A stretch of DNA of 64,000 nucleotides, taken from assembly GCA_023078555.1 (NCBI GenBank), contig CM041204.1:3626430-3690429 (forward strand). The letters run 5' to 3'. The stretch is from Ulva prolifera (taxonomy: Eukaryota > Chlorophyta > Ulvophyceae > Ulvales > Ulvaceae). Below the pieces are notes generated by a model, which did not search any database, had not been told where the DNA came from, and saw only the letters and a list, made by a program, of their open reading frames with translations. Below, piece by piece: positions 6,142 to 64,000 of the stretch. The position numbers and the translations under genes are program-made. The first letter of the stretch is position 1. Each line of letters begins with the position of its first letter.

Positions 6142-9100
6142 TGTATGTAGTTACACAGGACAGAGGCCGGGCAGCGAGCCGTTGCCAGGAATACACACGC
6201 AAATCCACTCACGCAGTCATGGCACTAGGCCGGGCACGAGCATGCCGTACCACAGCTCGGCCGGTGATGCCAGCCAAAGATTGAAGCCCCGCACGGAGCA
6301 CAAGAGCATTCCCCTTGCACAACGCCACACTCAACCGGCGCAGAGCATTCGTCACAAACAAAGCACGGTTCACCTTGCCACACCGAGACGCAAGCTCCGC
6401 CAGCCGATTCAAGTGATTCATGGCAGGCCGTCCCAATCGACCATGCGTCTCATGCGACAACGGCACAAAACTATACGCATCAGGGTCGTACAAACGATAA
6501 GCAGTGCGTTTCTGTACGTCCAGCGTCTCCGCAGCACCCCCGTCCTCGCGGGCCGCACGGCCGCAATAGGAACCAGCACAGGGGTTCACAACCGACACAT
6601 CTCCTATGCACAAAGGGTCACCCGGCGGCATAAACATGATGTCCCCCAGTTTCTCCTGGGCCACTGCCCTGAACACCTGCGCCAGCGCCGTTGCCTGCGC
6701 GGCAGCGGCCTGCTCCCCAGGCCCCGCCGGATCCTGGCCACCCGGCGCCGCTAGCGCCGCCAGGGCCGCAGCCTGCGCTGCGTCTGGCGCGTGGCGCCCC
6801 GGCTGGGCGCTGTGTCCGGCATCGGCGTCGGCGGCCGGAGCAGTCACAGGTGCCGGCGCCGCGTCCGCACGCGCAACCGGCGGCGGCGGCGGGGCTGAAG
6901 GCATCGGCTCCGCGGGCAAGGTCGCCCCGCGCGAAGGGCCCGCGATCTGGGAGGCGGGCTGGGGCGGAGCAGGGGGCGGACACGGCTGGCCAGCCTGGAT
7001 CTACCTCGGAGCGGCCGCGAGCCGCGCGCGGACGAACGGCGCTGTGCGCGGGATGCGCGTGGATGCGACACATGCGTGGGACCCGATCTCGCGCCATTGT
7101 TTTTCAACAATATTGTGGCGCAAAGTCCAGGTCCCCGCATTTTGTGTGTGCAATTCATCGCGTGGTCGAAATCATGCGGCTGTATAAATGTGCCACATCC
7201 GCAGCGCGAGCCGACTGCATTGGGAGGGGCTGGGGACACGCCCAGGAGATACCTGATGCACAGCATGATCTCAATGTCGGTCATGTGCAGCGCCTGGGAG
7301 AGCGGCAGGGTGCTCAGCCAAAGGGTGGCTGCACGGCAAGCACAGCTGCGAAGCCGTGCCAAGTTGCATGCAGCCTCGAGCGTGGTGTCATCATGGCTGC
7401 CAAGCAGAGCCGCCCGGCGGCGCAGGGCAACCACCTTGGTGATACGCTGCTGCATACCAGGTAACACCTTGGCGATGGTGTCGCCGCTCGCCGGCCCGGG
7501 CAGCTCCGGATGGAGCTGCTGAGCGACGTTGAGGGCCTGCCAGGTTTCCTGCAAGTGTTGCCCGTGCGGCCTCCGGAACGGCTGCGTGCGCTCGGGGCCT
7601 CCTGCGAATGCCTTGTGGCTCACCGCAGCTGCAGCGAGGTACGCTCCGTCCGCGACCTCCGGCGGCGTGGACATGACGCCCGGGCCTCCGAGGCGCGCTG
7701 GAAGGACGGCTTGTGCGGCCGCACGAGGGTCGTCCCGCGGGACGCGCATGATTACATTCACCGCAGCCAGGACAGACGCCTCCGTCCGGCGCATGTGATC
7801 GGAAATGTGCGCCCACGGCACCGCCCTGGCGTAGTGCAGCATACGGCGTTGGCAGGACATCGTGAGCAGCAAGAACTGGTCTTGTGCTTTCAGGGGCAGG
7901 CTCATCATCTTCTCGATGGTGGCGCACACCTTGTCGGCCGTCGCTTCCGCGTGCGCCGACTCGAACGCCGGGGTACCGATGGGCGTGCCGGTGATGGCGG
8001 TGCCCTCCGTGGCATGCGTAATGCCGAGCGCGGCCGCGACGGCGCCCGCATGCTGGGGGTCGCGCGAGTAGGCCGTGCACTTGTGCAGCTGGGGCTCCAG
8101 CCCGAGGGGCTCTGCTGCCGAGACCAGCGCACGGAATGCGGCGGCGGCGTCCACGCGCTGCCCGGCGATGGTGCAGTCGTCATGATACGCCATGAGGGCA
8201 GCCGTGACCTCCCTCTCGGGTGGCTGGTGCTGGGCCTGCACTGCCTGGAGGGGGCCCTGGAGCGCCAGGGCGAAGAGCAGCGGGCTGATGGGGTCGCCTT
8301 GACGCACGCCGCGCTGCGACATGATCGCAGCGGTGCCGGGCGGTGCGCCGTCGATGTAGAGATTTGGGGGGAACCTGTAAAACATGGTGGCGAAGGGCAG
8401 CAGCGCAGGCTTGTGAGACGCAACGGCCTCCAAGATGGCTGCACGGGACATCATGTTGAATGCATTCTTCCAGTCAAGCTGCACAAGCACGACATCGTCC
8501 CACGCTTGCAGCTCGGCGCGCACAGCATGGCCCAGGTTCTGCGCGCCTCCTGGCACCCCGACCCCCACCTGCAGCGGCGCGAGGGAGGCACCTAGGCCAC
8601 TGCACAGGGTCATGGCGCACAGGCTTACCAGGCGCTGCCACGTCTCTGCAATGGCGATAGGCCGGACGCCTCCCGGGGGCTTCTCCTGCGGGAGGAGGCG
8701 GCAGTCCAGCAAGCGCGGGAGGTGTGGCAGCCGGCTGGCGAGCTCGAGGCCGCGTTCACGAAGCGGTGAATCTCCGTGAACGCGGCCGTGGAGGCCGTGC
8801 CAGCAGCCCGGATGTGCTCATACGTCCACCCCGACAGGCCTGGGCCGCTGCCCTTCGGCAGCTTGTCGAGCAGGGCGAGGAGCGTCGCCTCGTCGATTTG
8901 CAGCGGGGGCGCGGGCTCGGCGGGCTGGGTGTCGGGAGGGAGCTCTTCTGCGGGATGCAGGTGCCGCAGCTCCTCATGCACTTCCGGGGTGTACCTGGCG
9001 ATGGGCGGCGCCTCCACTTTCTCCGCGCCTTTGCGGACATTACCGTCGCACAGTGACCTGTGGACGGAGCCCGCTAGGCGGCGATCCTGGTTCCGACGCA

Positions 9101-9554
9101 TGCTGCGCTTCTGGCTCGGAGTCGGCTCCGCCAGCCTGGGCTCCTCGCCGTCCATGAACAGCGTGATGCATGTGCGAGCGCGGCGCGCCGTGCCGTCCCC
9201 TCCCTTCAGCGACAGAACCTTACCAGGGAAGTCGAGGAAGCGGCCCAGGGCCACTCGTGCTCCGTCGATGTTGGACGCGTCGCTGGCATCTTTGAAATCT
9301 CCGAGGAGCTCGGCCGTTGCGTCGCCGAAATCCTTATGGACGCTGTCCGGGACCCTCGGGGAGGGCCTTGGCTAAGCGCTGTGGTGGGCGGCGGCGGGGG
9401 CTTCGGTGAAGTGGCGGGGTGGCTGATGGGGGTGCGACTGGGCGGGCTGGGCAGGCTGCGGCTGGGCGGGCTGCGGCTGGGCGGGCTGGGCTGGGGCGGG
9501 CTGTCGGGCTGGCTGTGCGGCGGCCAGCACGCAGTGACCTGACTTCAAGCTCCT
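6142..9554 (-). mobile_element. LINE-A copy 1 (RLE non-LTR element), 5'-truncated, unit A
   Basis: The element is on the minus strand; its 3' end is at 6142 with a short CATACA tail and its TTTGTAAC signal mutated to CTGTGTAAC. The 5' end stops at 9554, inside the codons just after the zinc-finger region of the full-length element, so the N-terminal zinc fingers and 5'UTR are missing. The left flank is host sequence ending ATATCAACCGC and the right flank is the host sliver at 9555. No target-site duplication is visible, which is common for RLE elements. Confidence 0.85.
6209..9538 (-). pseudogene. LINE-A polyprotein remnant (RT and RLE), broken, unit A
   Basis: The frame is broken in three places relative to the intact protein encoded at 44213-47773. 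A TAG replaces Gln near 9373-9375, where unit B keeps CAG. A 5-nt insertion near 8739 shifts frame before the RT (209-codon piece 8625-9254). An extra TT near 7141 shifts frame after the Cys/His knuckle, so the 622-codon RT piece (6844-8712) runs out of frame and the RLE sits in a separate 236-codon frame (6209-6919). The RT motifs LDWKNAF, GVRQGDPISPLLF and YHDD are present, as is the RLE core GDIMFMPPGDPLCIGDV. The extra TT and the 5-nt insertion recur in unit B, so they predate the amplification. Confidence 0.85.
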
Positions 9555-9714
9555 AGGTGCAGCGAGTCAGCAACATGACAGGCATACAATACAAGCACTT
9601 CACACACATATGCATGGGGGAAACGGGCGACGTGGAGTCCAAACCTCGCAGCACAATGCTCTGACACACCGACATATGCGGACCGCACCGGTACGCGTGC
9701 GGCAGACACACCAG
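9555..9714. other. Host sliver between two LINE-A copies, unit A
   Basis: 160 bp of non-LINE sequence between the truncated 5' end of one LINE-A and the 3' tail of the next. It contains several CATATG/CATACA-like words. It is present in unit B (23693-23852) and absent from units C and D. Confidence 0.7.
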
Positions 9715-10804
9715 TATGTATGTAGGTACAAAGGACAGAGGCCGAGCAGCGAGCCGTTGCCAGGAATACACACGCAAATCCACTCACGCAGTCATGGCAC
9801 TAGGCCGGGCACGAGCACGTACCACAGCTCGGCCGGTGATGCCAGCCAAAGATTGAAGCCCCGCACGGAGCACAAGAGCATTCCCCTTGCACAACGCCAC
9901 ACTCAACCGGCGCAGAGCATTCGTCACAAACAAAGCACGGTTCACCTTACCACACCGAGACGCAACCTCCGCCAGCCGATTCAAGTGATTCATGGCAGGC
10001 CGCCCCAAGCGACCATGCGTCTCATGCGACAACGGCACGAAACTATACGCATCAGGGTCGTACAAACGATAAGCAGTGCGTTTCTGCACGTCCCGCGTCT
10101 CCGCAGCACCCCCGTCCTCGCGGGCCGCACGGCCGCAATAGGAACCAGCACAGGGGTTCACAACCGACACATCTCCTATGCACAAAGGGTCGCCCGGCGG
10201 CATAAACATGATGTCCCCCAGTTTCTCCTGGGCCACTGCCCTGAACACCTCATCCAGCGCCGTTGCCAGCGCGGCAGCGGCCTGCTCTCCAGGCCCCGCT
10301 GGATCCTGACCACCCGTCGCCGCCGCCGCCGCCAGGGCCGCAGCCTGCGCTGGCGCGTGGCGCCCCATCTGGGCGCTGTGTCCAGCATCGGCGTCGGCGG
10401 CCGGAGCAGGCGTAGGTGCCGGCGCCTCGTCCGCGCGCGCGGTTGGCGGCGGCGGCGGGGCTGCAGGCATCGGCGCCGCGGGCAAGGCCGCCCCACGCGA
10501 AGGGCCCGCGACCTGGGAGGCGGGCTGGGGCGGAGCAGGGGGGGGCGGGCCCAACGGGCCAGCATGGATCTGCCTCGATGCGGCCGCGAGCCGCGCGCGG
10601 ACGAACGGCGCTGTGCGCGGGATGCGCGTGGATGCCACACACGCGTGGGACCCGATCTCGCGCCATTGTTTTTCAACGATATTGTGGCGCGAAGTCCAGG
10701 TCCCCGCATTGTGTGTGCAATTCATCGCGTGGTCGAGATCATGCGGCTGTATGAGAGTGCCACATTCGCAGCGCGAGCCGACCGCATTGGGAGGGGCTGG
10801 GGAC
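9715..10804 (-). mobile_element. LINE-A copy 2, 5'-truncated, unit A
   Basis: A minus-strand fragment covering the Cys/His knuckle, Pro-rich linker and complete RLE in one open frame (RLE part 9784-10710). The 3' end has (TATG)n on the plus strand, and the TGTAAC signal is mutated to TGTACC. The 5' truncation at about 10804 coincides with GGGGACAT, whose CAT overlaps the start of a (CATA)n tract. A small deletion in the Ala-rich linker (DAAQ region, near 10345) distinguishes it from the unit B copy. Confidence 0.82.
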
Positions 10805-10819
10805 ATACATACATACATG
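10804..10819. repeat. Inverted tetranucleotide junction, unit A
   Basis: CATA repeats run directly into CATG and then the TAG of the next LINE-A tail. The repeat polarity therefore inverts at the junction between one element's truncated 5' end and the next element's 3' end. Confidence 0.75.
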
Positions 10820-10952
10820 TAGTTACAAAGGACAGAGGCCGGGCAGCGAGCCGTTGCCAGGAATACACACGCAAATCCACTCACGCAGTCATGGCACTAG
10901 GCCGGGCACGAGCACGTACCACAGCTCGGCCGGTGATGCCAGCCAAAGATTG
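10817..10952 (-). mobile_element. LINE-A 3' stub, unit A
   Basis: About 135 bp of LINE-A 3' end: the last ~28 codons, the stop and the 3'UTR with TTTGTAACTA. It is truncated at AAAGATTG where it meets the (TATG)n tail of LINE-B. Confidence 0.8.
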
Positions 10953-12345
10953 TATGTATGTATGCACGATTACATAGCCGTATCCATTTGGACATTGGCA
11001 ACTCCGAAATCCGGGACCGAAAGAGGCATCCAAGCAACATGCTGCCGCAAACTCTGACTTGCGCCACAGAATGCAACAACACGAGCCAATTCACCTAGAG
11101 GGGACGGGCGATTTGCAACACCCGACACCCCAGCATCACCACCAACACCATCAACACCGACAATAAGAACAACCGCTACATCAGACCACGAAACACCAGA
11201 GGCACTGTCATAAGGACCTGGCCGTGCGAGCAACTGCTGCACCAAAACTGCAACGGCGGAGACATGCCGATCACGATGTGCCACTGGGACAGGTGGCAGA
11301 ACTGCCCCGATGGGTGCACGTGCGATGTAGGATGTGAAGACATCAGCAGCACGTGAATATTCCAAATGCTTTTCACTACGGTGCCTACACAAGAAAGGAG
11401 ACAGACCAGAACGAGCAGACATTAGCACACGCACAAGACCGGGCTCAACGGAGTCCATAAACGGGGCTAGTGACCCTAGTTCGTGTGTTATCACACCACG
11501 CAACCACTCTCCAGTGACCTTATTGTCGCGACCACGCTTCTCAAATCGTTGTTCAAGGTATGCCAACCACATGACAGCCACGACCTTCTCACAGGTAAGA
11601 TTTGAGTACGTGATTGTGAGAGGGCTTTGTTTGGACGGCTGATCATGCATGCCGAGACGTTTGGACACCCTGGGTGGCCCACGTCGGCGGCGATGCTCAG
11701 GCTCGGGTGGAGCCTGCAAGGCAAGTCTGATGTGTGCATATCGTTTCAGTTCTGCCGCAATGGCCGTGATGCGGGAATGAAAGTCCCCGCCCACCCCCGG
11801 CCCCCGTTGAGAGTGACCCCGAATCGCGGTGGATTCCACCGCAACCGGGAATCGCTCCGCCCCCATGTGTGTCAGCTTTGCGTACCAGCAAAGTTTAGCT
11901 GCCTTGATCATTGAGCTCACAGGCAGGAGGCCCGTGTCGGAAAAAAGAATCTCCTCCCTGCAATCGAACTGGTGCAGACCAAACACCATGAGGATTGGCT
12001 TTTTACAGATGGTATCAAGTTTGTCGAGTTCAGTTTTTGGGCCAATCCAGACCTCAGCCCCATACAAAGCAGGAGTATATATGAACGCATAAACAAGGCG
12101 GAGCCGGGCGGTCACCGGGAGGTAGTGGCAACGCAGCACTGGCCGCCACGCGCCAAGTGCCTTGTTCATCTTTGCGCGTACATGATGCATATGTTCAGAC
12201 CAAGAGCCATTTGACTGGAAGAAAACACCCAAGTATTTGTAGGTGTGAACAGTCTCCGACTGCGACCCCCGCAGCTGGACGACAACTGGTGCGCCGCCCT
12301 GCGGCTGATTGAACACCATAGTTTTAGACTTCAACACATTTGGTA
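10953..12345 (-). mobile_element. LINE-B (second non-LTR family), 5'-truncated, unit A
   Basis: The minus-strand 3' tail is TCGTG followed by (CATA)3. The body encodes a LINE RT thumb/C-terminal region. Its stop codon lies inside ATGTAATCGTG, so TGTAA overlaps the stop and the tail starts 5 nt later. The 5' limit is approximate: similarity to known RTs fades upstream of WRSLPNVLKSKTMVF. Confidence 0.72.
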
Positions 12346-12763
12346 AGGAGCGCCATTGAAACAACCAAACAATGCTGCCAGTAGGCAGCATTGTTGGACT
12401 TGTTCGACACACCACGAGTGAAGCGGCACTGCCCCTGGCAAAGCACACAGCACGCACCTGAGGCTCAGTGGATGCACACGTGCCCGAGTCCGGCAAACAG
12501 GCCCGCTGCCGGACGCTTGCCCAGCACAAGAACGTCTGAGTCGACCCGCAAGCGGCGCAGCTTCGGCAGAGCTTACAGCGCCTTGGTGACGGCGCGCGAG
12601 CTCTGCCGCATCGGCGCACGTAAGGGCGCTGCCGCTGATGTCGAGGCCGCGCAACGCTGCGGCAGACGGGCCCGCCGCAGCACCCGAGCATGGCGGGCGC
12701 CCTGGATTGGGAGGAGCTTGTCACCTGCACCTTCACATCCACCTTCAAATCCACCGCCGCCAC
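10970..12763 (-). pseudogene. LINE-B RT C-terminal frame, unit A
   Basis: A 597-codon open frame. From about residue 145 it reads like the end of the palm and the thumb of a non-LTR RT: NVLKSKTMVF, YKYLGVFF, LRLVYAFIYTPALYGAEVW, LDKLDTICKK. The expected catalytic (F/Y)ADD before it is not found; the corresponding stretch reads GSAASLVVCRTSPTML. I see no endonuclease and no Cys/His knuckle. The first ~130 codons are Cys/Arg-rich and resemble no LINE domain; they probably belong to flanking host DNA that happens to be open. Unit A differs from the other copies by substitutions such as KKPILMVF for KKAIRMVF. Confidence 0.65.
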
Positions 12764-14157
12764 CTCGCCCGCATCCCGCCTTCCCCGTCCCGCCTCCGCC
12801 TAGTGTGTCCAGCACGGCGCACGATGGCAGGCACCCCGGCCCAGCATGCGCAGCACGCAGCGCAGTATCCACCGCCGGCCCGAAACATGCCTCTGCCTCG
12901 ACTGCACGGCGAGCCTGACAGCTCAGACGGAATGATCGCTGCTTCGCAAGCCGCGCGCGATCATGATCAACGCCCGCTGCCAATGTACGTACGCGGCGCG
13001 TGCTGGGCGATGTGCTTCCCAGCAGCGCAGCATGCCCAGGAGGTGTCCGCGGCAGCCGGCGGCCGCCCTGGCCCTCGGCGCCGCGGCTCATCACAGCGTG
13101 CCAGCACCCGCCAGCCGCCGCCCGGAGGCCTCCTCACATTCCCGCCCCAGCGCGGCTGCAGACCCGCAAGGCAGTAAGCATGAGCTCTGGGACGACCGCC
13201 CGCGGCAGTGCCGACCGCCCCGTGTGCCAGAGCAGAGCACGCAGCACGGCGGGGGGCTGCACAAGCGTGACCGGCCGCGACCAGCCGCAGCAGCTTCATC
13301 AGTGACGCGCCGCCACGCCTGTCCACGTATGGCTCGGGGTCGGCCGGCAGCAGGGAAGATGGAGCGGCAGCAACGGTCTGTCTGGACGCTGAGCGTCCTG
13401 GACCATCGGGCGGGCGGGCAGCTCCAACTCGCAGGCCCATTCCATGGCCCGGCAAGGCGCGCCGCAGAGGCTTGGAAACACTGCGGCGTCTGGCCGAGGA
13501 CGAGAAGCACATCGGCAGCATGCGCAGCAGTGGCCACACCTTGAAACGCTTGCCGCAGCCCGCGGCAGTAGGCCTGTGTCGTCCGTCCAAGCATCTAGTC
13601 CGACCACGCAATCGCCCTGCAAATCATGTGGCAATTGACATGGTCGGTCGCAGCGTGGCAGATGCATGTCCAGGACCACTCGTTCGAGGTCGTTCCAGTA
13701 GTCATCGCCCGACTGGCTCGAGATGTCGGCGGGCCACACGTGACCAGCGCAGCCGCTTTGGTAACAGGGCTGCCGCATGCAAACCCGCTTGGCAAACCCG
13801 CTTGGCGCAGGCAGAGAACGACGCGGGTACTACACGAGAGCGGCGCGCTGCAGCCCCACGGCACTGAGGCGTGCCTGTGGCATTAAGCAGGGGAGTCTCA
13901 GTTGTGACAAGGTGATACAGGGAGCACACCTCGAGTGCCCTACTGGTAGGCTTGTGTGGGTGGCAGCGATCGAAGGAAGAGTGCCCCACCGGCCACAAGC
14001 GCTCGGCTGAATCAGACTCCAGGTCACCTGAGCCACTTCATCAGCGAGACATCTGGCTGCCTGCATGACCTTGTCTTATGACCCACGAATCTCAGATGCA
14101 GCGGTAGCAAGCCTGCCTTGTTTTTTGTTGGCACAGGTGGAGCTCCTCAAGGGGATG
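12346..14157. other. Right host block, unit A
   Basis: About 1.8 kb, very GC-rich, open in many frames on both strands, with no recognised domain. Plus-strand candidates are a 37-codon start MAGALDWEELVTCTF (about 12690), a Pro/Gln-rich frame from MAGTPAQHAQ to about 13177, a frame with TLRRLAEDEKHIGSMRSS (13472-13867) and one with WQMHVQDHSFEVVPVVIARL (13626-13886). The last two read like genuine protein and could be exons of a gene continuing past 14157. The minus strand has equally long frames (12967-13611, 13299-13778), so I do not assign a gene. Confidence 0.35.
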
Positions 14158-33119: not shown

Positions 33120-33186
33120 CAATGTATGTAGTTACAAAGGACAGAGGCCGGGCAGCGAGCCGTTGCTAGGAATACACACGCAAATC

Positions 33187-33369
33187 CACTCACGCAATCA
33201 TGGCACTAGGCCGGGCACGAGCACGTACCACAGCGCGGCCGGTGATGCCAGCCAAAGATTGAAGCCCCGCACGGAGCACAAGAGCATTCCCCTTGCACAA
33301 TGCCACACTCAACCGGCGCAGAGCATTCGTCACAAACAAAGCACGGTTCACCTTACCACACCGAGACGC
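33187..33369 (-). pseudogene. LINE-A RLE C-terminus, separated by copia
   Basis: The last ~61 codons of the LINE-A protein (ASRCGKVNRALFVTNALRRL to the stop), severed from the rest of the frame by the copia element at 33370. Confidence 0.85.
33365..33369. repeat. Target-site duplication, left copy (GACGC)
   Basis: Matches 40229-40233. Five bp is the usual copia value, and the host sequence is restored by joining here. Confidence 0.93.
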
Positions 33370-33763
33370 TGTTATAAGCAAGGACCTATGCGCAGCATTC
33401 ATCAAGCTAGCTAGTGGGCTGCAGAGCCGTTACCTGTGGAGCACTCAGGTCGTACGTTGGCAATGCACAGATCAGGGGAAGTACTGTAATGCAGCGAGGC
33501 AATACAGGAACCACGTAAGACTGTAAGAGAATGGTTACAGTAGACTTGGAGGCACATGACTATATGCCACCGATCAGTCAAGTCTACAGCGGTCATAATC
33601 ACAGTGACCGCACACAATCCTAACATGGATTGTGCTGGATTATGCACATGCATATGATCATGCATATGTCCTAACATAACAGGAGTTGGGCCCGTGGCCA
33701 CCACACTCATGTGCGTACTTGCACGTCATGCATTGTGTCCCAGGATGGACCTCATTTATGACA
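33370..33763 (-). repeat. Copia 3' LTR
   Basis: 394 bp, 3' in element sense. It holds a perfect 9-bp inverted repeat, GTAGACTTG (33540-33548) and CAAGTCTAC (33579-33587), enclosing a TATA-like CATATAG in element sense. A TGTAA word (33535-33539 on the minus strand) could serve as the poly(A) signal if the host is a chlorophyte. Confidence 0.93.
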
Positions 33764-33770
33764 CTCCCCT
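33764..33770 (-). promoter_or_regulatory. Polypurine tract overlapping the gag-pol stop codon
   Basis: In element sense the 3' LTR is preceded by AGGGGAG. The A and G of the TAG stop codon (33769-33771) are the first two bases of this tract, so coding ends only 5 nt before the LTR. Confidence 0.8.
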
Positions 33771-39561: not shown

Positions 39562-39823
39562 GGTCTACCTGCAGCGAGCGATCTCTTCTCTCGCGCGGGC
39601 AGCTTCGGGCAGCTTCGTCGGCCGGCCCGTGGACCGTCACGACTAATCTAATGTAAACCGCAGCCACACAGCTCGCAATCAAACATGCGAATTACTACTG
39701 TTGACTATCATGCGGTTGATCTGGTCATATGACTACGCACTAAAGCAGCGCAGATGCCCTTGGGCATGCGCGGTCATATGACACACCACTATTACGCACA
39801 ACGAATGCAACCGCGCAAACGTT
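39562..39823 (-). other. Copia untranslated leader
   Basis: The ~260-nt leader between the primer-binding site and the start codon. It has two copies of the 10-bp palindrome GTCATATGAC (39724-39733 and 39773-39782) and a hairpin ATGCCC-TT-GGGCAT between them. These could be RNA dimerisation or packaging elements, by analogy with other LTR elements. Confidence 0.6.
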
Positions 39824-39834
39824 CACCGATACCA
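39824..39834 (-). promoter_or_regulatory. Copia primer-binding site
   Basis: Directly abuts the 5' LTR. In element sense it reads TGGTATCGGTG. TGGTATC is the start of the initiator-Met-tRNA-type PBS common in copia elements; the following bases depend on the host tRNA, which is not in this window. Confidence 0.75.
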
Positions 39835-40228
39835 TGTTATAAGCAAGGACCTATGCGCAGCATTCATCAAGCTAGCTAGTGGGCTGCAGAGCCGTTACCT
39901 GTGGAGCACTCAGGTCGTACGTCGGCAATGCACAGATCAGGGGAAGTACTGTAATGCAGTGAGGCAATACAGGAACCACGTAAGACTGTAAGAGAATGGT
40001 TACAGTAGACTTGGAGGCACATGACTATATGCCACCGATCAGTCAAGTCTACAGCGGTCATAATCACAGTGACCGCACACAATCCTAACATGGATTGTGC
40101 TGGATTATGCACATGCATATGATCATGCATATGTCCTAACATAACAGGAGTTGGGCCCGTGGCCACCACACTCATGTGCGTACTTGCACGTCATGCATTG
40201 TGTCCCAGGATGGACCTCATTTATGACA
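39835..40228 (-). repeat. Copia 5' LTR
   Basis: 394 bp, 5' in element sense. Differs from the 3' LTR at two positions (C against T at 39922/33457 and T against C at 39960/33495). It carries the same 9-bp inverted repeat at 40005-40013 and 40044-40052. Confidence 0.94.
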
Positions 40229-40233
40229 GACGC
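40229..40233. repeat. Target-site duplication, right copy (GACGC)
   Basis: Matches 33365-33369. LINE-A coding sequence resumes here. Confidence 0.93.
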
Positions 40234-43200
40234 AACCTCCGCCAGCCGATTCAAGTGATGCATGGCAGGCCGCCCCAAGCGACCATGCGTCTCATGCGAC
40301 AACGGCACGAAACTATACGCATCAGGGTCGTACAAACGATAAGCAGTGCGTTTCTGCACGTCCCGCGTCTCCGCAGCACCCCCGTCCTCGCGGGCCGCAC
40401 GGCCGCAATAGGAACCAGCACAGGGGTTCACAACCGACACATCTCCTATGCACAAAGGGTCGCCCGGCGGCATAAACATGATGTCCCCCAGTTTCTCCTG
40501 GGCCACTGCCCTGAACACCTCATCCAGCGCCGTTGCCTGCGCGGCAGCGGCCTGCTCCCCAGGCCCCGCTGGATCCTGACCACCCGGCGCCGCCGCCGCC
40601 GCCAGGGCCGCAGCCTGCGCTGCGTCTGGCGCGTGGCGCCCCATCTGGGCGCTGTGTCCAGCATCGGCGTCGGCGGCCGGAGCAGGCGTAGGTGCCGGCG
40701 CCTCGTCCGCGCGCGCGGTCGGCGGCGGCGGCGGGGCTGCAGGCATCGGCGCCGCGGGCAAGGCTGCCCCACGCGAAGGGCCCGCGACCTGGGAGGCGGG
40801 CTGGGGCGGAGCAGGGGGGGGCGGGCCCAACGGGCCAGCATGGATCTGCCTCGATGCGGCCGCGAGCCGCGCGCGGACGAACGGCGCTGTGCGCGGGATG
40901 CGCGTGGATGCCACACACGCGTGGGACCCGATCTCGCGCCATTGTTTTTCAACGATATTGTGGCGCGAAGTCCAGGTCCCGGCATTGTGTGTGCAATTCA
41001 TTGCGTGATCGAGATCATGCGGCTGTATGAGAGTGCCACATTCGCAGCGCGAGCCGACCGCATTGGGAGGGGCTGGGGACATGCCCAGGAGATACCTGAT
41101 GCACAGCATGAACTCAATGTCAGTCATGCGCAGCGCCTGGGAGAGCGGCAGGGTGCTCAACCAAAGGGTGGCTGCACGGCAAGCACAGCTGCGAAGCCGT
41201 GCCAAGTTGCATGCACCCTCGAGCGTGGCGACGTCATGGCTGCCAAGCAGAGCTGCCCGGCGGCGCAGGGCAACCAACTTTGTGATACGCTGCTGCATAC
41301 CAGGTAACACCTTGGCGATGGTGTCGCCGCTCGCCGGCCCGGGCAGCTCCGGATGGAGCTGCTGAGCGACGTTGAGGGCCTGCCAGGTTTCCTGCAATTG
41401 TTGCCCGTGCGGCCCCCGGTACGGCTGCATGCACTCGGGGCCTCCTGCGAACGCCTTTTGGCTCACCGCCGCTGCAGCGAGGTACGCTCCGTCCGCGACC
41501 TCCTGCGGCGTGGACGTGACGCCCAGGCCTCCGAGGCGCGCTGGAAGGACGGCTTGTGCGGCCGCACGAGTGTCGTCCCGCGGGACGCACATGATTTCAT
41601 TCACCGCAGCCAGGACGGACGCCTCCGTCCGGCGCATGTGATCGGAAATGTGCGCCCACGGCACCGCCCTGGCGTAGTGCAGCATACGGCGTTGGCAGGA
41701 CATCGTGAGCAGCAAGAACTGGTCTTGCGCTTTCAGGGGCAAGCGCATCATCTTTTCGATGGTGGCGCACACCTTGTCGGCCGTCGCTTCCGCGTGCGCC
41801 GACTCGAACGCCGGGGTGCCGATGGGCGTGCCGGTGATGACGGTGCCCTCCGTGGCATGCGTTATGCCGAGCGCGGCCGCGACGGATCCCGCATGCTGGG
41901 GGTCGCGCGAGTAGGCCGTGCACTTGTGCAGCTGGGGCTCCAGCCCGAGGGGCTCTGCTGCCGAGACCAGCGCACGGAATGCGGCAGCGGCGTCCACGCG
42001 CTGCCCGGCGATGGTGCAGTCGTCATGATACGCCATGAGGGCGGCCGTGACCTCCCTCCCGGGCGGCTGGTGCTGGGCCTGCACTGCCTGGAGGGGGCCC
42101 TGGAGGGCCAGGGCGAAGAGCAACGGGCTGATGGGGTCGCCTTGACGCACGCCGCGCTGCGACGTGATTGCAGCGGTGCCGGGCGGTGCGCCTTCGATGT
42201 AGAGATTTGCGGGGAACCTGTAAAGCATGGTGGCGAAGGGCAGCAGCGCAGGCTTGTGAGACGCAACGGCCTCCAAGATGGCTGCACGGGACATCATGTT
42301 GAATGCATTCTTCCAGTCCAGCTGCACAAGCACGACATCGTCCCACGCTTGCAGCACGGCGCGCGCAGCATGGCCCAGGTTCTGCGCGCCCCCTGGCACC
42401 CCGACCCCCACCTGCAGCGGCGCGAGGGAGGCACCCAGGCCACTGCACAGGGTCATGGCGCACAGGCTTACCAGGCGCTGCCACGTCTCTGCAATGGCGA
42501 TAGGGCGGACGCCTCCCTGTGGCTTCTCCTGCGGGAGGAGGCGGCAGTCCAGCAAGCGCGGGAGGTGTGGCAGCCGGCCGGCGAGGGCCGCGTTCACGAA
42601 GCGGTGAATCTCCGTGAATGCGGCCGTGGAGGCCGTGCCAGCAGCCCGGATGTGCTCATACGTCCACCCCGACAGGCCTGGGCCGCTGCCCTTAGGCAGC
42701 TTGTCGAGCAGTGCGCGGAGCGTCGCCTCGTCGATTTGCAGCGGGGGCGCGGGCTCGGCGGGCTGGGTGTCGGGGGGGAGCGCTTCTGCGGGATGCAGGT
42801 GCCGCAGCGCCTCATGCACTTCCGGGGTGTACCTGGCGATGGGCGGCGCCTCCACTTTCTCTGCGCCTTTGCGGACATTACCGTCGCTCAGTGACCTGTG
42901 GACGGAGCCCGCCAGGCGGCGATCCTGGTTCTGATTCATTCTGCGCTTCTGGCTCGGAGTGGGCTCCGCCAGCCTGGGCTCCTCGCCGTCCATGAACAGC
43001 GTGATGCATGTACGAGCGCGGCGCGCCGTGCCGTCCCCTCCCTTCAGCGACAGAACCTTACCAGGGAAGTCGAGGACGCGGCCCAGGGCCAGTCGTGCTC
43101 CGTCGATGTTTGACGCGTCGCTGGCATCGTTGAAATCTCTGAGGAGCTCGGCCGTTGCGTCGCCGAACTCCGGATGGACGGTGTCCGGGACTTTCGGGGA

Positions 43201-43614
43201 GGGCCTGGGCTGGGCGGTGTTGTGGGCGGCGGCGGGGGCTTCGGTGAAGTGACGGGGTGGCTGATGGGGGTGCGGCTGGGCAGGCTGGGCAGGCTGCGGC
43301 TGGGCGGGCTGCGGCTGGGCGGGCTGGGCTGGGGCGGGTTGGGCTGGGGCGGGCTGTCGGGCCGGATGTGTGGCGGGCAGCACGCAGTGACCTGACCTCA
43401 AGCTCCTGTTCTGACCTCCCACACATTTATGCGCCTTAGGGGTCTTGGTGGAGCCGAATATGCCACAGTGAGAGCAGTACGCGGCATTGAGTTCGTGCAG
43501 CTTCGCAGTAGGCAGCCTCGGCCCGTCGCGATGGATTCCTCGGATGTGGGTGAACAGACTTGAATGGGAGGAGAGACTAGCGCTGCATCCGTCATATGGA
43601 CACTGAAAGCTCAT
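40234..43614 (-). pseudogene. LINE-A protein, N-terminal 95%, truncated by copia
   Basis: It keeps the start MSFQCPYDGC, both zinc fingers, RT with YHDD, the CECG...H...C knuckle and most of the RLE. It is cut after the RLE helix NHLNRLAEVAS, where copia enters; the frame then reads into the LTR. Apart from the insertion I see no disabling mutation. It differs from the intact neighbour at scattered residues, for example ALRHLH for TLRHLH and VNEIMCVP for VNEIMRVP. Confidence 0.88.
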
Positions 43615-44140
43615 ACGCAGGGACTCGTTCCGCTGAAAGCGGACACACTAACAGTGCAGTCTAACGGGCCATTGAACCGGCCAGACGGCACAAAACTAAA
43701 ACAACAAACACACAACACTTTAACGAATCAAATCTGCAGATCACCTGCGGCTAGTCCGCAGGATTGCCAGTGGGACTGCCGGACAACGGCACGCGGGCAG
43801 CCAGCGGCCCGCGCCGACATGACGGCTGCACAGCCAAGCGGGTCACCAGGAAGGCCAGGCGAAACATAGAACAGACATCTAGGTGTTCCAAATGGGCAAG
43901 GCTGCAGGCCACTGGCGGTCAGTCCGCTGGCATTCTAGTGGGGCTGCAGAACGACGGAACACTGGCAGCTGGCGCGCGTATTCGTTGCAGCTGCACGACA
44001 GCGGACGACAGAACACAACTAAGGGCCTATTCGTTTTATTTTTGCTGCCTCCCGCAGCCGGGTTCTTTTGGCATGCGTCTACATCGGGACCACGACACAG
44101 CACAGACGACAGACGTACGATAAAGATACGGCCGAGGTGT
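43615..44140 (-). promoter_or_regulatory. LINE-A 5'UTR/promoter region (copia-bearing copy)
   Basis: About 525 bp upstream of the LINE-A start codon. It includes an imperfect tandem duplication with a period of about 168 bp (AGTCCGC at 43753 and 43921) and several short hairpins, such as CTGCGG-CTAGT-CCGCAG. In LINEs the promoter lies inside the 5'UTR; monomer-like repeats there recall mouse L1 promoters. Confidence 0.6.
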
Positions 44141-44212
44141 ATGTCTGTATGTAGTTACAAAGGACAGAGGCCGGGCAGCGAGCCGTTGCCAGGAATACAC
44201 ACGCAAATCCAC

Positions 44213-47200
44213 TCACGCAGTCATGGCACTAGGCCGGGCACGAGCACGTACCACAGCTCGGCCGGTGATGCCAGCCAAAGATTGAAGCCCCGCACGGAGC
44301 ACAAGAGCATTCCCCTTGCACAACGCCACACTCAACCGGCGCAGAGCATTCGTCACAAACAAAGCACGGTTCACCTTACCACACCGAGACGCAACCTCCG
44401 CCAGCCGATTCAAGTGATTCATGGCAGGCCGCCCCAAGCGACCATGCGTCTCATGCGACAACGGCACGAAACTATACGCATCAGGGTCGTACAAACGATA
44501 AGCAGTGCGTTTCTGCACGTCCCGCGTCTCCGCAGCACCCCCGTCCTCGCGGGCCGCACGGCCGCAATAGGAACCAGCACAGGGGTTCACAACCGACACA
44601 TCTCCTATGCACAAAGGGTCGCCCGGCGGCATAAACATGATGTCCCCCAGTTTCTCCTGGGCCACTGCCCTGAACACCTCATCCAGCGCCGTTGCCTGCG
44701 CGGCAGCGGCCTGCTCCCCAGGCCCCGCTGGACCCTGACCACCCGGCGCCGCCGCCGCCGCCAGGGCCGCAGCCTGCGCTGCGTCTGGCGCGTGGCGCCC
44801 CATGTGGGCGCTGTGTCCAGCATCGGCGTCGGCGGCCGGAGCAGGCGTAGGTGCCGGCGCCTCGTCCGCGCGCGCGGTCGGCGGCGGCGGCGGGGCTGCA
44901 GGCATCGGCGCCGCGGGCAAGGCTGCCCCACGCGAAGGGCCCGCGACCTGGGAGGCGGGCTGGGGCGGAGCAGGGGGGGGCGGGCCCAACGGGCCAGCAT
45001 GGATCTGCCTCGATGCGGCCGCGAGCTGCGCGCGGACGAACGGCGCTGTGCGCGGGATGCGCGTGGATGCCACACACGCGTGGGACCCGATCTCGCGCCA
45101 TTGTTTTTCAACGATATTGTGGCGCGAAGTCCAGGTCCCCGCATTGTGTGTGCAATTCATCGCGTGATCGAGATCATGCGGCTGTATGAGAGTGCCACAT
45201 TCGCAGCGCGAGCCGACCGCATTGGGAGGGGCTGGGGACATGCCCAGGAGATACCTGATGCACAGCATGAACTCAATGTCAGTCATGCGCAGCGCCTGGG
45301 AGAGCGGCAGGGTGCTCAACCAAAGGGTGGCTGCACGGCAAGCACAGCTGCGAAGCCGTGCCAAGTTGCATGCACCCTCGAGCGTGGCGACGTCATGGCT
45401 GGCAAGCAGAGCTGCCCGGCGGCGCAGGGCAACCAACTTTGTGATACGCTGCTGCATACCAGGTAACACCTTGGCGATGGTGTCGCCGCTCGCCGGCCCG
45501 GGCAGCTCCGGATGGAGCTGCTGAGCGACGTTGAGGGCCTGCCAGGTTTCCTGCAATTGTTGCCCGTGCGGCCCCCGGTACGGCTGCATGCACTCGGGGC
45601 CTCCTGCGAACGCCTTTTGGCTCACCGCCGCTGCAGCGAGGTACGCTCCGTCCGCGACCTCCTGCGGCGTGGACGTGACGCCCAGGCCTCCGAGGCGCGC
45701 TGGAAGGACGGCTTGTGCGGCCGCACGAGTGTCGTCCCGCGGGACGCGCATGATTTCATTCACCGCAGCCAGGACGGACGCCTCCGTCCGGCGCATGTGA
45801 TCGGAAATGTGCGCCCACGGCACCGCCCTGGCGTAGTGCAGCATACGGCGTTGGCAGGACATCGTGAGCAGCAAGAACTGGTCTTGCGCTTTCAGGGGCA
45901 AGCGCATCATCTTTTCGATGGTGGCGCACACCTTGTCGGCCGTCGCTTCCGCGTGCGCCGACTCGAACGCCGGGGTGCCGATGGGCGTGCCGGTGATGAC
46001 GGTGCCCTCCGTGGCATGCGTTATGCCGAGCGCGGCCGCGACGGATCCCGCATGCTGGGGGTCGCGCGAGTAGGCCGTGCACTTGTGCAGCTGGGGCTCC
46101 AGCCCGAGGGGCTCTGCTGCCGAGACCAGCGCACGGAATGCGGCGGCGGCGTCCACGCGCTGCCCGGCGATGGTGCAGTCGTCATGATACGCCATGAGGG
46201 CGGCCGTGACCTCCCTCCCGGGCGGCTGGTGCTGGGCCTGCACTGCCTGGAGGGGGCCCTGGAGGGCCAGGGCGAAGAGCAGCGGGCTGATGGGGTCGCC
46301 TTGACGCACGCCGCGCTGCGACGTGATTGCAGCGGTGCCGGGCGGTGCGCCTTCGATGTAGAGATTTGCGGGGAACCTGTAAAGCATGGTGGCGAAGGGC
46401 AGCAGCGCAGGCTTGTGAGACGCAACGGCCTCCAAGATGGCTGCACGGGACATCATGTTGAATGCATTCTTCCAGTCCAGCTGCACAAGCACGACATCGT
46501 CCCACGCTTGCAGCACGGCGCGCGCAGCATGGCCCAGGTTCTGCGCGCCCCCTGGCACCCCGACCCCCACCTGCAGCGGCGCGAGGGAGGCACCCAGGCC
46601 ACTGCACAGGGTCATGGCGCACAGGCTTACCAGGCGCTGCCACGTCTCTGCAATGGCGATAGGGCGGACGCCTCCCTGTGGCTTCTCCTGCGGGAGGAGG
46701 CGGCAGTCCAGCAAGCGCGGGAGGTGTGGCAGCCGGCCGGCGAGGGCCGCGTTCACGAAGCGGTGAATCTCCGTGAATGCGGCCGTGGAGGCCGTGCCAG
46801 CAGCCCGGATGTGCTCATACGTCCACCCCGACAGGCCTGGGCCGCTGCCCTTCGGCAGCTTGTCGAGCAGTGCGCGGAGCGTCGCCTCGTCGATTTGCAG
46901 CGGGGGCGCGGGCTCGGCGGGCTGGGTGTCGGGGGGGAGCGCTTCTGCGGGATGCAGGTGCCGCAGCGTCTCATGCACTTCCGGGGTGTACCTGGCGATG
47001 GGCGGCGCCTCCACTTTCTCCGCGCCTTTGCGGACATTACCGTCGCTCAGTGACCTGTGGACGGAGCCCGCCAGGCGGCGATCCTGGTTCTGATTCATTC
47101 TGCGCTTCTGGCTCGGAGTGGGCTCCGCCAGCCTGGGCTCCTCGCCGTCCATGAACAGCGTGATGCATGTACGAGCGCGGCGCGCCGTGCCGTCCCCTCC

Positions 47201-47773
47201 CTTCAGCGACAGAACCTTACCAGGGAAGTCGAGGACGCGGCCCAGGGCCAGTCGTGCTCCGTCGATGTTTGACGCGTCGCTGGCATCGTTGAAATCTCTG
47301 AGGAGCTCGGCCGTTGCGTCGCCGAACTCCGGATGGACGGTGTCCGGGACCTTCGGGGAGGGCCTGGGCTGGGCGGTGTTGTGGGCGGCGGCGGGGGCTT
47401 CGGTGAAGTGACGGGGTGGCTGATGGGGGTGCGGCTGGGCAGGCTGGGCAGGCTGCGGCTGGGCGGGCTGCGGCTGGGCGGGCTGGGCTGGGGCGGGTTG
47501 GGCTGGGGCGGGCTGTCGGGCCGGATGTGTGGCGGGCAGCACGCAGTGACCTGACCGCAAGCTCCTGTTCTGACCTCCCACACATTTATGCGCCTTAGGG
47601 GTCTTGGTGGAGCCGAATATGCCACAGTGAGAGCAGTACGCGGCATTGAGTTCGTGCAGCTTCGCAGTGGGCAGTCTCGGCCCGTCGCGATGGATTCCTC
47701 GGATGTGGGTGAACAGACTTGAATGGGAGGAGAGACTAGCGCTGCATCCGTCATATGGACACTGAAAGCTCAT
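44213..47773 (-). CDS. LINE-A protein: zinc fingers, RT and restriction-like endonuclease (1186 aa)
   Basis: Expected to nick target DNA and reverse-transcribe the element RNA from the nick (target-primed reverse transcription). N-terminal C2H2 finger: C5, C10, H23, H28. Second Cys/His site: C47, C50, H62, C64. A PAQP-rich linker spans ~78-120. RT spans ~305-620 with motif A LDWKNAF (D433), GVRQGDPISPLLFALAL and catalytic YHDD (D531, D532). The usual first two residues FA are replaced by YH. A knuckle CECG...H...C follows (C857, C859, H870, C874), then a Pro/Ala linker. The RLE core is D1044-x13-D1058 (GDI...GDVSVV), with K1088 and E1108 (HETHGRLG). The element encodes no apurinic-type endonuclease. 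The order matches R2/NeSL/CRE-like RLE elements, which often have sequence-specific targets. The start is the first Met, directly before the finger. Confidence 0.93.
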   Translation of the reverse strand: MSFQCPYDGCSASLSSHSSLFTHIRGIHRDGPRLPTAKLHELNAAYCSHCGIFGSTKTPKAHKCVGGQNRSLRSGHCVLPATHPARQPAPAQPAPAQPAQPQPAQPQPAQPAQPHPHQPPRHFTEAPAAAHNTAQPRPSPKVPDTVHPEFGDATAELLRDFNDASDASNIDGARLALGRVLDFPGKVLSLKGGDGTARRARTCITLFMDGEEPRLAEPTPSQKRRMNQNQDRRLAGSVHRSLSDGNVRKGAEKVEAPPIARYTPEVHETLRHLHPAEALPPDTQPAEPAPPLQIDEATLRALLDKLPKGSGPGLSGWTYEHIRAAGTASTAAFTEIHRFVNAALAGRLPHLPRLLDCRLLPQEKPQGGVRPIAIAETWQRLVSLCAMTLCSGLGASLAPLQVGVGVPGGAQNLGHAARAVLQAWDDVVLVQLDWKNAFNMMSRAAILEAVASHKPALLPFATMLYRFPANLYIEGAPPGTAAITSQRGVRQGDPISPLLFALALQGPLQAVQAQHQPPGREVTAALMAYHDDCTIAGQRVDAAAAFRALVSAAEPLGLEPQLHKCTAYSRDPQHAGSVAAALGITHATEGTVITGTPIGTPAFESAHAEATADKVCATIEKMMRLPLKAQDQFLLLTMSCQRRMLHYARAVPWAHISDHMRRTEASVLAAVNEIMRVPRDDTRAAAQAVLPARLGGLGVTSTPQEVADGAYLAAAAVSQKAFAGGPECMQPYRGPHGQQLQETWQALNVAQQLHPELPGPASGDTIAKVLPGMQQRITKLVALRRRAALLASHDVATLEGACNLARLRSCACRAATLWLSTLPLSQALRMTDIEFMLCIRYLLGMSPAPPNAVGSRCECGTLIQPHDLDHAMNCTHNAGTWTSRHNIVEKQWREIGSHACVASTRIPRTAPFVRAQLAAASRQIHAGPLGPPPPAPPQPASQVAGPSRGAALPAAPMPAAPPPPPTARADEAPAPTPAPAADADAGHSAHMGRHAPDAAQAAALAAAAAPGGQGPAGPGEQAAAAQATALDEVFRAVAQEKLGDIMFMPPGDPLCIGDVSVVNPCAGSYCGRAAREDGGAAETRDVQKRTAYRLYDPDAYSFVPLSHETHGRLGRPAMNHLNRLAEVASRCGKVNRALFVTNALRRLSVALCKGNALVLRAGLQSLAGITGRAVVRARARPSAMTA

Positions 47774-48197
47774 ACGCAGGGACTCGTTCCGCTGAAAGCG
47801 GACACACTAACGGTGCAGTCTAACGGGCCATTGAACCGGCCAGACGGCACAAAACTAAAACAACAAACACACAACACTTTTAACGAATCAAATCTGCAGA
47901 TCACCTGCGGCTAGTCCGCAGGATTGCCAGTGGGACTGCCGGACAACGGCACGCGGGCAGCCAGCGGCCCGCGCCGACATGACGGCTGCACAGCCAAGCG
48001 GGTCACCAGGAAGGCCAGGCGAAACATAGAACAGACATCTAGGTGTTCCAAATGGGCAAGGCTGCAGGCCACTGGCGGTCAGTCCGCTGGCATTCTAGTG
48101 GGGCTGCAGAACGACGGAACACTGGCAGCTGGCGCGCGTATTCGTTGCAGCTGCACGACAGCGGACGACAGAACACAACTAAGGGCCTATTCGTTTT
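47774..48197 (-). promoter_or_regulatory. LINE-A 5'UTR of the intact copy
   Basis: Contains both ~168-bp-period repeat blocks (AGTCCGC at 47913 and 48081) but lacks the outermost ~100 bp present at 44040-44140. If the promoter needs that part, this copy could be silent despite its intact protein. Confidence 0.6.
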
Positions 48198-48231
48198 CAT
48201 ACATACATATGTCTGTATGTATGTATGTATG
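48198..48231. repeat. (CATA)/(TATG) junction between LINE-A and LINE-B, unit C
   Basis: Plus strand: CATACATACATATG, then TCTG, then (TATG)n. It shares the unusual TATGTCTGTATG word with the LINE-A/LINE-A junctions at 44139 and 61743. Confidence 0.85.
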
Positions 48232-53230: not shown

Positions 53231-53233
<3 letters not shown>

Positions 53234-61742: not shown

Positions 61743-63479
61743 TGTATGTCTGTATGTAGTTACAAAGGACAGAGGCCGGGCAGCGAGCCGTTGCCAGGAA
61801 TACACACGCAAATCCACTCACGCAGTCATGGCACTAGGCCGGGCACGAGCACGTACCACAGCTCGGCCGGTGATGCCAGCCAAAGATTGAAGCCCCGCAC
61901 GGAGCACAAGAGCATTCCCCTTGCACAACGCCACACTCAACCGGCGCAGAGCATTCGTCACAAACAAAGCACGGTTCACCTTACCACACCGAGACGCAAC
62001 CTCCGCCAGCCGATTCAAGTGATTCATGGCAGGCCGCCCCAAGCGACCATGCGTCTCATGCGACAACGGCACGAAACTATACGCATCAGGGTCGTACAAA
62101 CGATAAGCAGTGCGTTTCTGCACGTCCCGCGTCTCCGCAGCACCCCCGTCCTCGCGGGCCGCACGGCCGCAATAGGAACCAGCACAGGGGTTCACAACCG
62201 ACACATCTCCTATGCACAAAGGGTCGCCCGGCGGCATAAACATGATGTCCCCCAGTTTCTCCTGGGCCACTGCCCTGAACACCTCATCCAGCGCCGTTGC
62301 CTGCGCGGCAGCGGCCTGCTCCCCAGGCCCCGCTGGATCCTGACCACCCGGCGCCGCCGCCGCCGCCAGGGCCGCAGCCTGCGCTGCGTCTGGCGCGTGG
62401 CGCCCCATCTGGGCGCTGTGTCCAGCATCGGCGTCGGCGGCCGGAGCAGGCGTAGGTGCCGGCGCCTCGTCCGCGCGCGCGGTCGGCGGCGGCGGCGGGG
62501 CTGCAGGCATCGGCGCCGCGGGCAAGGCTGCCCCACGCGAAGGGCCCGCGACCTGGGAGGCGGGCTGGGGCGGAGCAGGGGGGGGCGGGCCCAACGGGCC
62601 AGCATGGATCTGCCTCGATGCGGCCGCGAGCCGCGCGCGGACGAACGGCGCTGTGCGCGGGATGCGCGTGGATGCCACACACGCGTGGGACCCGATCTCG
62701 CGCCATTGTTTTTCAACGATATTGTGGCGCGAAGTCCAGGTCCCCGCATTGTGTGTGCAATTCATCGCGTGATCGAGATCATGCGGCTGTATGAGAGTGC
62801 CACATTCGCAGCGCGAGCCGACCGCATTGGGAGGGGCTGGGGACATGCCCAGGAGATACCTGATGCACAGCATGAACTCAATGTCAGTCATGCGCAGCGC
62901 CTGGGAGAGCGGCAGGGTGCTCAACCAAAGGGTGGCTGCACGGCAAGCACAGCTGCGAAGCCGTGCCAAGTTGCATGCACCCTCGAGCGTGGCGACGTCA
63001 TGGCTGGCAAGCAGAGCTGCCCGGCGGCGCAGGGCAACCAATTTTGTGATACGCTGCTGCATACCAGGTAACACCTTGGCGATGGTGTCGCCGCTCGCCG
63101 GCCCGGGCAGCTCCGGATGGAGCTGCTGAGCGACGTTGAGGGCCTGCCAGGTTTCCTGCAATTGTTGCCCGTGCGGCCCCCGGTACGGCTGCATGCACTC
63201 GGGGCCTCCTGCGAACGCCTTTTGGCTCACCGCCGCTGCAGCGAGGTACGCTCCGTCCGCGACCTCCTGCGGCGTGGACGTGACGCCCAGGCCTCCGAGG
63301 CGCGCTGGAAGGACGGCTTGTGCGGCCGCACGAGTGTCGTCCCGCGGGACGCGCATGATTTCATTCACCGCAGCCAGGACGGACGCCTCCGTCCGGCGCA
63401 TGTGATCGGAAATGTGCGCCCACGGCACCGCCCTGGCGTAGTGCAGCATACGGCGTTGGCAGGATACGGCGTTGGCAGG
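61743..63479 (-). mobile_element. LINE-A copy 2, 5'-truncated in the RT C-terminal part, unit D
   Basis: A continuous frame (61818 to about 63470) covers the end of the RT domain, knuckle, linker and complete RLE without the TT frameshift. At the truncated end a 16-bp block (ATACGGCGTTGGCAGG) is directly duplicated before the (TATG)n tail of LINE-B. Variants are a mixture of the two unit C elements. Confidence 0.85.
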
Positions 63480-64000
63480 TGTATGTATGTATGTATGCAC
63501 GATTACATAGCCGTATCCATTTGGACATTGGCAACTCCGAAATCCGGGACCGAAAGAGGCATCCAAGCAACATGCTGCCGCAAACTCTGACTTGCGCCAC
63601 AGAATGCAACAACACGAGCCAATTCACCTAGAGGGGACGGGCGATTTGCAACACCCGACACCCCAGCATCACCACCAACACCATCAACACCGACAATAAG
63701 AACAACCGCTACATCAGACCACGAAACACCAGAGGCACTGTCATAAGGACCTGGCCGTGCGAGCAACTGCCGCACCAAAACTGCAACGGCGGAGACATGC
63801 CGATCACGATGTGCCACTGGGACAGGTGGCAGAACTGCCCCGATGGGTGCACGTGCGATGTAGGATGTGAAGACATCAGCAGCACGTGAATATTCCAAAT
63901 GCTTTTCACTACGGTGCCTACACAAGAAAGGAGACAGACCAGAACGAGCAGACATTAGCACACGCACAAGACCGGGCTCAACGGAGTCCAGAAACGGGGC
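63480..64000 (-). mobile_element. LINE-B, 3' end only (cut by window), unit D
   Basis: The (TATG)4 tail, then the stop at 63503-63505 and the C-terminal ~165 codons of the LINE-B frame. The frame is still open at the window end and should continue to the right. Confidence 0.75.

Follow-up and report, generated by a model that had tools for sequence, protein, structure and literature searches.

Nested LINEs in the window

The stretch of Ulva prolifera DNA analysed here, C9:3626430-3690429 (64,000 nucleotides, referred to as the window) of a genome of 88.9 Mb in 44 contigs, carries copies of two long interspersed nuclear elements (LINEs), LINE-A and LINE-B, that stand one behind the other at CATA repeats. 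This report concerns the way in which LINE-A comes to be stacked there; numbers without a contig name are window positions. The genome gives 38 matches to the chlorophyll a/b binding family, one of which, taken as an exon, resembles solved light-harvesting proteins and places the host in the green lineage; among solved structures, the highest whole-chain score went to a multi-domain chain (9vfj_2), and the best match with a single domain was 7dz7_V, a Chlamydomonas entry. The best preserved LINE-A (44145..48197, minus strand) is nearly full length, lacking ~107 bp of its 5' end, and contains an open reading frame (ORF) of 1197 amino acids (44213-47806) with motifs of a reverse transcriptase (RT) and motifs resembling those of a restriction-like endonuclease (RLE). 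Flank comparison reveals a target-site duplication (TSD), TACATACAGACATA, the 3' copy of which lies at 44140..44153 and the 5' copy at 48208..48221, within the CATA tail of a LINE-B (both on the minus strand). The 3' end of this element is adjoined by the 5' end of a second LINE-A, close to full length (40228..44144, minus strand), whose remaining 3' piece (33123..33369, minus strand) is separated from it by a Copia insertion and adjoins with its own 3' end a broken LINE-A at 32745-33120. LINE-As truncated at the 5' end, likewise on the minus strand, are located at 9717..10805 (duplicate 23855-24949), at 10817..10952 (136 bp, between a LINE-B tail and the copy at 9717..10805; related copies 24962-25053 and 25070-25208) and at 61750..63464, behind a LINE-B tail and with a 3' flank that is identical, through duplication, to that at 44145. 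A (CATA)n run marks the LINE-A/LINE-A junction at 10804..10815 (plus strand; also 24948-24959), and the (CATA)n tails of LINE-B occupy 10953..10964 (minus strand), 25209-25220, 48216-48231 and 63482-63497. LINE-B itself is represented in the window by its last ~1.4 kb only, a 5'-truncated part at 10965..12367 (minus strand; copies near 25221-26623, 48232-49634 and 63498-64000) whose 5' limit was placed where longer copies on C1 diverge from the window copy. The window contains nine CATA 12-mers, versus 0.00 in shuffles.

Self-comparison revealed that a large share of the window consists of a segmental unit of ~14.1 kb in several partly broken copies. The unit at 1..14157 (no strand) recurs at 14158-28218 and, in broken form, at later positions of the window, and the ~14.1-kb spacing is echoed by LINE-A ends at C9 3607906, 3621989, 3636146 and 3650284. 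A segmental tandem array of LINE-A, LINE-B and unit sequence is seen at C9 about 3.54-3.69 Mb. The closest correspondences are between 1-10905 and 14158-25053 (99.5% identity), 10951-23692 and 48218-61011 (98.5%), and 40228-44037 and 44387-48197 (99.5%). Junction 24961 is a duplicate of 10817, as 61743 is of 44139; junction 25065 lies within a local 108-bp tandem duplication or, alternatively, reflects a short insertion with a 19-bp TSD. Because segmental and tandem duplication copied some of them, the eight junctions listed in a preliminary description of the window (10817, 24961, 25065, 33121, 44139, 48198, 61743 and 63480) reduce, by our own count, to about five independent events, and their treatment as independent was rejected.

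According to that description, truncated LINE-As repeatedly abut the (CATA)n tails of an upstream LINE-A or LINE-B. The adjacency itself stands, with LINE-A 5' ends adjoining LINE-A or LINE-B 3' ends on the same (minus) strand and CATACA-type letters between them, but the details vary: the abutting copy at 44139 is nearly full length, only CATACATT separates the elements at 33121, and ~15 other letters intervene between run and LINE-A at 63480. It had further been stated that almost every LINE-A 3' end meets (CATA)n. All 12 of the window ends shown read ..CTACAT, but at 6142, 20290, 32745 and 57589, all copied from one event, GCGGTTG comes after a single CATACA, for which "(CATA)n tail" is a generous term. 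These ends belong to a LINE-A of the segmental unit (6142..9554, minus strand; copies 20290-23692, 32745-33120 and 57589-61642), in which ..CTACATACA at the 3' end is followed by unit sequence and the 5' end is not at CATA.

The LINE-A element and its protein

LINE-A is ~4.16 kb long. Its single ORF matches RVT_1 (E 8.3e-11), and its closest solved relatives are R2 proteins (E 7.6e-6). The features of an RLE, as given in PMC5678591, are a CX2-3CX7-8HX4C knuckle, RH at the first helix, a PD-(D/E)XK-type core and a KX2KY motif. In LINE-A, RH was recognized by eye at 76-77, GD236..D250 in place of PD..D, and K280..Y284 at the KX2KY spacing (alignment A1). In place of the canonical knuckle, the same alignment shows C-x-C-x10-H-x3-C in LINE-A (C49, C51, H62, C66), which is similar but has another spacing. 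As a candidate for an N-terminal zinc finger, only a zf-C2H2 match with an E value of 0.52, below the cut-off, was obtained. From these motifs, LINE-A looks like an RLE-type element with a single ORF. Insertion into 28S ribosomal DNA (rDNA), a trait of the R2 clade, was not seen among the sampled LINE-As, which occupy CATACA-type sites on several chromosomes, the rDNA itself not having been located.

Insertion sites of LINE-A

LINE-A is a high-copy element, with 492 exact 26-mer matches to its 3' end and 1186 first-look candidates genome-wide, so that the junction pattern could be tested beyond the window. The first 100 of the 492 exact places comprise 85 on C1 and continue into C2. The 30 best-scoring loci, 30 regions of C1 and the window were merged into 48 stretches (307,714 bases) containing 119 LINE-A-type 3' ends. 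In 12 of these the 5' flank was too short; 11 of the 107 readable ends belong to a ~0.9-kb element described below, and the remaining 96 form the LINE-A sample on which the target preference was checked.

A LINE-A-type tail, or one derived from it, precedes 44 of the 96 LINE-As, a LINE-B-type tail 26 and another CATACA run 14, and none of these was found at 12. The test for LINE-B-type tails was loose, allowing five edits; a LINE-B alignment lies just upstream in 17 of the 26 and the tail motif alone in nine. The preference for CATA targets proposed in the preliminary description is supported in this sample of the genome, in that insertions did not fall mostly outside CATA: 84 of 96 follow a tail or CATACA run. 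Random 70-mers drawn from the sampled stretches passed the same test in 149 of 5000 cases (3%). A control with the reversed pattern was uninformative, as the CATA pattern read backwards is a CATA repeat too. The 12 window copies in the sample, many of them duplicates, contribute 5, 4, 0 and 3 to the four classes in the order given above, and without them 75 of 84 LINE-As lie behind a LINE tail or CATACA run. When exact C1 ends were counted once per place, the classes comprised 22, 11, 11 and 4 of 48, in addition to six ends of the ~0.9-kb element; thus, 44 of 48 follow a LINE tail or CATACA run.

The final 25 bp before the 5' end contain CATACA on the strand of the element in 67 of the 96 LINE-As versus seven on the other strand, and the orientation of insertion is therefore strongly biased. 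Clustering was evident on C1, where the 85 exact ends form 23 neighbour pairs separated by no more than 500 bp, 22 of them on the same strand (0.3 pairs at random, with a maximum of 3 in 1000). The stacks run head-to-tail, mostly in one orientation, and they also occur far from the window, in agreement with the self-nesting clusters envisaged earlier. Single CATACA 6-mers number 134 in 155,481 unmasked bases, or ~77,000 genome-wide when scaled from these LINE-rich neighbourhoods. By rough arithmetic, in which 61 well-identified tail insertions at ~1,500 places are set against 23 others at ~77,000 sites, the preference for tails is about hundredfold.

Target-site duplications and the letters at the 3' end

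TSDs with at least three letters outside the repeat were found in 20 of the 96 LINE-As, in contrast to 1.9 for mispaired flanks and a maximum of 7 in 300 shuffles. They are about 10-24 bp long, and 19 of the 20 contain CATAC or ACATA, the exception being the apparently false TSD at C1:5360341. Because these TSDs join CATAC or ACATA to unique letters, they show that the CATA motif was present before insertion. Five TSDs, among them TACATACCAACACCCGCCCGGC, TACATAAGGAG and CATACAGTGCC, have no LINE aligned on their upstream side; three of the five are called LINE-B-type by the loose test. At C1:11178623 and C1:4131616, the duplicated target extends into the first letters of the following LINE-A, and insertion therefore took place into an existing stack.

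The letters that follow ..CTA are informative where they are not CATACA. In 7 of 15 such copies they are mirrored in the 5' flank (six further copies without an anchor were left out), so that the sequence after ..CTA is the target there and LINE-A need not carry a CATA tail. The preliminary description had the element make a new target with its own CATA tail. The target is indeed remade with each insertion, but the 3' CATA is at least partly target sequence, so that the TSD, and not an encoded tail, can supply the new target. Between the target and the 5' end of LINE-A, inverted (TATG)n letters were observed at 48198-48207, where TGTATGTATG on the minus strand separates the 5' TSD copy from LINE-A, and at 10804-10816 and its copies, as if the end of the cDNA had folded back or the opposite strand had been copied.

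LINE-B and a short partner element

A longer copy of LINE-B on C1 (L044) has one ORF with matches to Exo_endo_phos (E 3.2e-15) and RVT_1 (E 2.9e-24). Since the longer C1 copies carry an endonuclease/exonuclease/phosphatase (EEP) endonuclease and an RT in one frame, LINE-B is classed from its sequence as a LINE of the apurinic/apyrimidinic endonuclease (APE) type, with a (CATA)n end. First-look places number 287 genome-wide. Nine of 15 exact LINE-B tails on C1 are followed, within 4.5 kb downstream and on the same strand, by an exact LINE-A 3' end, compared with 0.14 at random; in none of the 15 was a LINE-A end found downstream on the opposite strand or upstream on either strand. LINE-B as a second CATA-targeting element was considered and rejected, since only one of 11 truncated LINE-B 5' ends with a readable flank lies at CATA, some of the 11 being short or diverged copies whose true end is uncertain. 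Close to the start of contig C3 (L005 1-120) there is a 3' end of LINE-B type that carries a long CATA tail.

The ~0.9-kb element has only its last ~70 bp in common with LINE-A, at 89-94% likeness in 11 sampled copies, and a 26-mer near its 3' end occurs in 28 exact copies. Each of the six copies complete at the 5' end follows a LINE-A-type tail, in a sample biased by the choice of loci around LINE-A-type ends. The element can be viewed as a non-autonomous partner with the 3' end and the targets of LINE-A, and it presumably depends on the LINE-A protein. A conserved 3' RNA fold common to the two elements was rejected (z scores +1.16 and -1.19). In full-length copies (L061 1577-2483, L060 5588-6491 and others), ~10-25 unexplained letters separate the CATA run from the 5' end.

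Other sequences of the window include a Copia long terminal repeat (LTR) retrotransposon (33359..40228, minus strand), a bystander within the second LINE-A, with 405-bp LTRs 98.8% identical and an open polyprotein ORF at 33769-39564. An ORF of the segmental unit (2768-3802) has a weak 3'-5' exonuclease-like match (24.6 bits).

A proposed model for the growth of LINE-A stacks

We consider it highly probable, given the motifs of the protein and the structure of the junctions, that LINE-A would integrate by target-primed reverse transcription at CATAC or ACATA and would strongly favour (CATA)n runs, which at the sampled loci are mostly LINE-B tails and the ends of earlier LINE-As, and that the duplication of the target would give rise to the stacks. 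A cut in the strand reading TGTATG would fall at the left border of the motif; the 3' end so produced would prime reverse transcription of an RNA that terminates in ..GTAACTA(CATACA), and a cut in the other strand would lie about 10-24 bp downstream. By sequence, the motif is part of the TSD, which leaves a target on both sides of the new copy, where more LINE-A and ~0.9-kb copies are found. The preliminary interpretation is thereby supported in outline, with the corrections given above.

Several points weigh against this model. Single CATACA sites are common, and the 6-mer alone therefore cannot be the whole signal. Twelve of the 96 LINE-As lack CATACA on the 5' side; we read several of these as fragments, as rearranged copies from the window or as alignments that were split, which does not apply to C9:3257655, with 100% identity. 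The stretches were chosen around LINE-A ends, so that the extra ends within them are enriched for stacking, and the exact C1 count, in which 57 of the 85 ends are covered by the sampled stretches, avoids this bias only in part. Among the 20 TSDs, the one at C1:5360341 looks false, C9:3688180 is a window duplicate, and C9:3651391 and C1:5289787 may be tandem duplications; a looser TSD test without the rule on unique letters discriminated weakly (46 of 96 versus 23.0 for mispaired flanks). The RLE assignment is based on motifs seen by eye, with an atypical spacing of the zinc knuckle. Finally, at least one copy, C5:3541711, carries on its 3' side four TACA units in excess of those in its target, which suggests that an encoded tail or slippage also contributes.

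The same extra units are relevant to an alternative that we regard as possible though rather unlikely, namely that the preference arises when the RNA 3' end (..CTACATACA) pairs with a primer strand reading TGTATG at a nick or break, and not through recognition by the endonuclease, CATA runs being favoured because they can pair in several registers. Both the LINE-A 3' end and the target contain CATACA, runs seem to be chosen far more often than single CATACA sites, and partial pairing is retained at minimal sites such as TTACATAAGGAG; slippage during pairing may account for the added TACA. Against RNA pairing, TSDs of about 10-24 bp suggest staggered enzymatic cuts, and in the 7 of 15 variant copies the letters after ..CTA follow the target and not the usual CATACA.

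It is improbable that LINE-A recognizes LINE tails as such, through chromatin or a protein, and not the CATA letters. Recognition of tails would agree with 61 of the 96 LINE-As, of which 44 follow a LINE-A-type or derived tail and 17 a LINE-B tail identified by alignment. However, insertions without an aligned LINE are still at CATAC or ACATA. Of the 37 distinct CATACATACATACA runs on C1, classified by exact match and nearness, 12 are LINE-A ends, 11 LINE-B tails and 14 neither, and a LINE-A lies downstream of 6 of 12, 6 of 11 and 9 of 14, respectively. Because 9 of the 14 runs without a LINE label have a LINE-A downstream, the run itself seems to matter and not the identity of the LINE, some of the 14 possibly being diverged tails.

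We give little credence to the formation of whole stacks at once, with the RT jumping end to end from one RNA template to the next. Such jumping by the R2 RT is mentioned, with references, in PMC2718515, and many junctions are head-to-tail with no or few letters between the elements; but inner members can possess TSDs of their own, which reach into the first letters of the member downstream (C1:11178623, C1:4131616), C9:3670575 is flanked by a separate TSD inside a LINE-B tail, and, of the 15 exact LINE-B tails on C1, 6 are not followed by an exact LINE-A 3' end over the next 4.5 kb. Unequal crossing-over or segmental duplication between CATA repeats holds for much of the window, with its ~14.1-kb unit and 108-bp tandem duplication, and could apply to the near-identical short units at C1:5289787 and 5289856, but as the origin of the stacks in general it is very improbable, as stacked copies elsewhere differ in truncation point and flanks, some with their own TSDs, and insertions exist at CATACA sites without an aligned LINE.

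The proposed integration of LINE-A at CATA runs invites a broader view, to which we assign an even chance, of a two-tier economy in which the APE-type LINE-B scatters (CATA)n tails and the unrelated, RLE-type LINE-A is specialized on them as its principal niche, a hyperparasite of the tail of another LINE. Each LINE-A insertion would double the landing pad and extend the stack, and the ~0.9-kb derivative would exploit the same sites. Site-specific LINEs often exhaust their site; the TSD of LINE-A spans the target, so that insertion doubles it. A large part of the LINE-A target pool is the tail of a LINE of a different class. The system offers a simple model for the growth of nested LINE islands and a natural case for distinguishing, in the choice of target, what is due to the specificity of the endonuclease and what to the pairing of RNA and primer. 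There is also technical interest in integrating proteins whose targets are short and simple.

Comparison with known systems

Simple repeats serve as targets of several LINEs. Dong inserts in TAA repeats, and the Waldo elements of insects occupy ACAY repeats. The ACAT-type target repeat of LINE-A is like that of Waldo, which differs in belonging to the R1 clade, in being APE-type and in its insect hosts. The parts of the LINE-A system are each known, namely target-specific RLE LINEs, microsatellite targets, nested LINE clusters of green algae and TSD-driven arrays; their combination was not found in the literature searched. The same search, with most subscription papers outside its reach, yielded no RLE LINE that uses CATA repeats or the tail of another LINE.

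Some HERO families are RLE LINEs that target microsatellites (PMC4640811), and LINE-A resembles them in its putative RLE and its simple-repeat target. L1-clade LINEs of green algae with (CATA)n 3' repeats are on record (PMC3747384); LINE-B resembles them in its EEP endonuclease, RT and (CATA)n tail. Zepp and Zepp-like elements are, like LINE-A, LINEs of green algae that nest into existing copies and form mostly 5'-truncated arrays (PMC3446292, PMC8226300). Unlike LINE-A with its CATACA end, Zepp is listed as an L1-clade element with poly(A) (PMC3747384) and forms one cluster per chromosome. A single centromere-like cluster of this kind was rejected for LINE-A on C1, the contig tabulated, where the 85 exact ends are spread over 23 of 26 half-megabase bins.

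A close parallel to the growth of the stacks is provided by the R1 tandem arrays of Drosophila, in which each new element is taken to integrate within the TSD left by an earlier one (PMC2718515). As in the R1 arrays, the TSD of LINE-A spans the target, and head-to-tail arrays result. R1 is APE-type (PMC4640811) and uses an rDNA site, whereas LINE-A has RLE motifs and is dispersed at a short repeat that comes largely from LINE tails.

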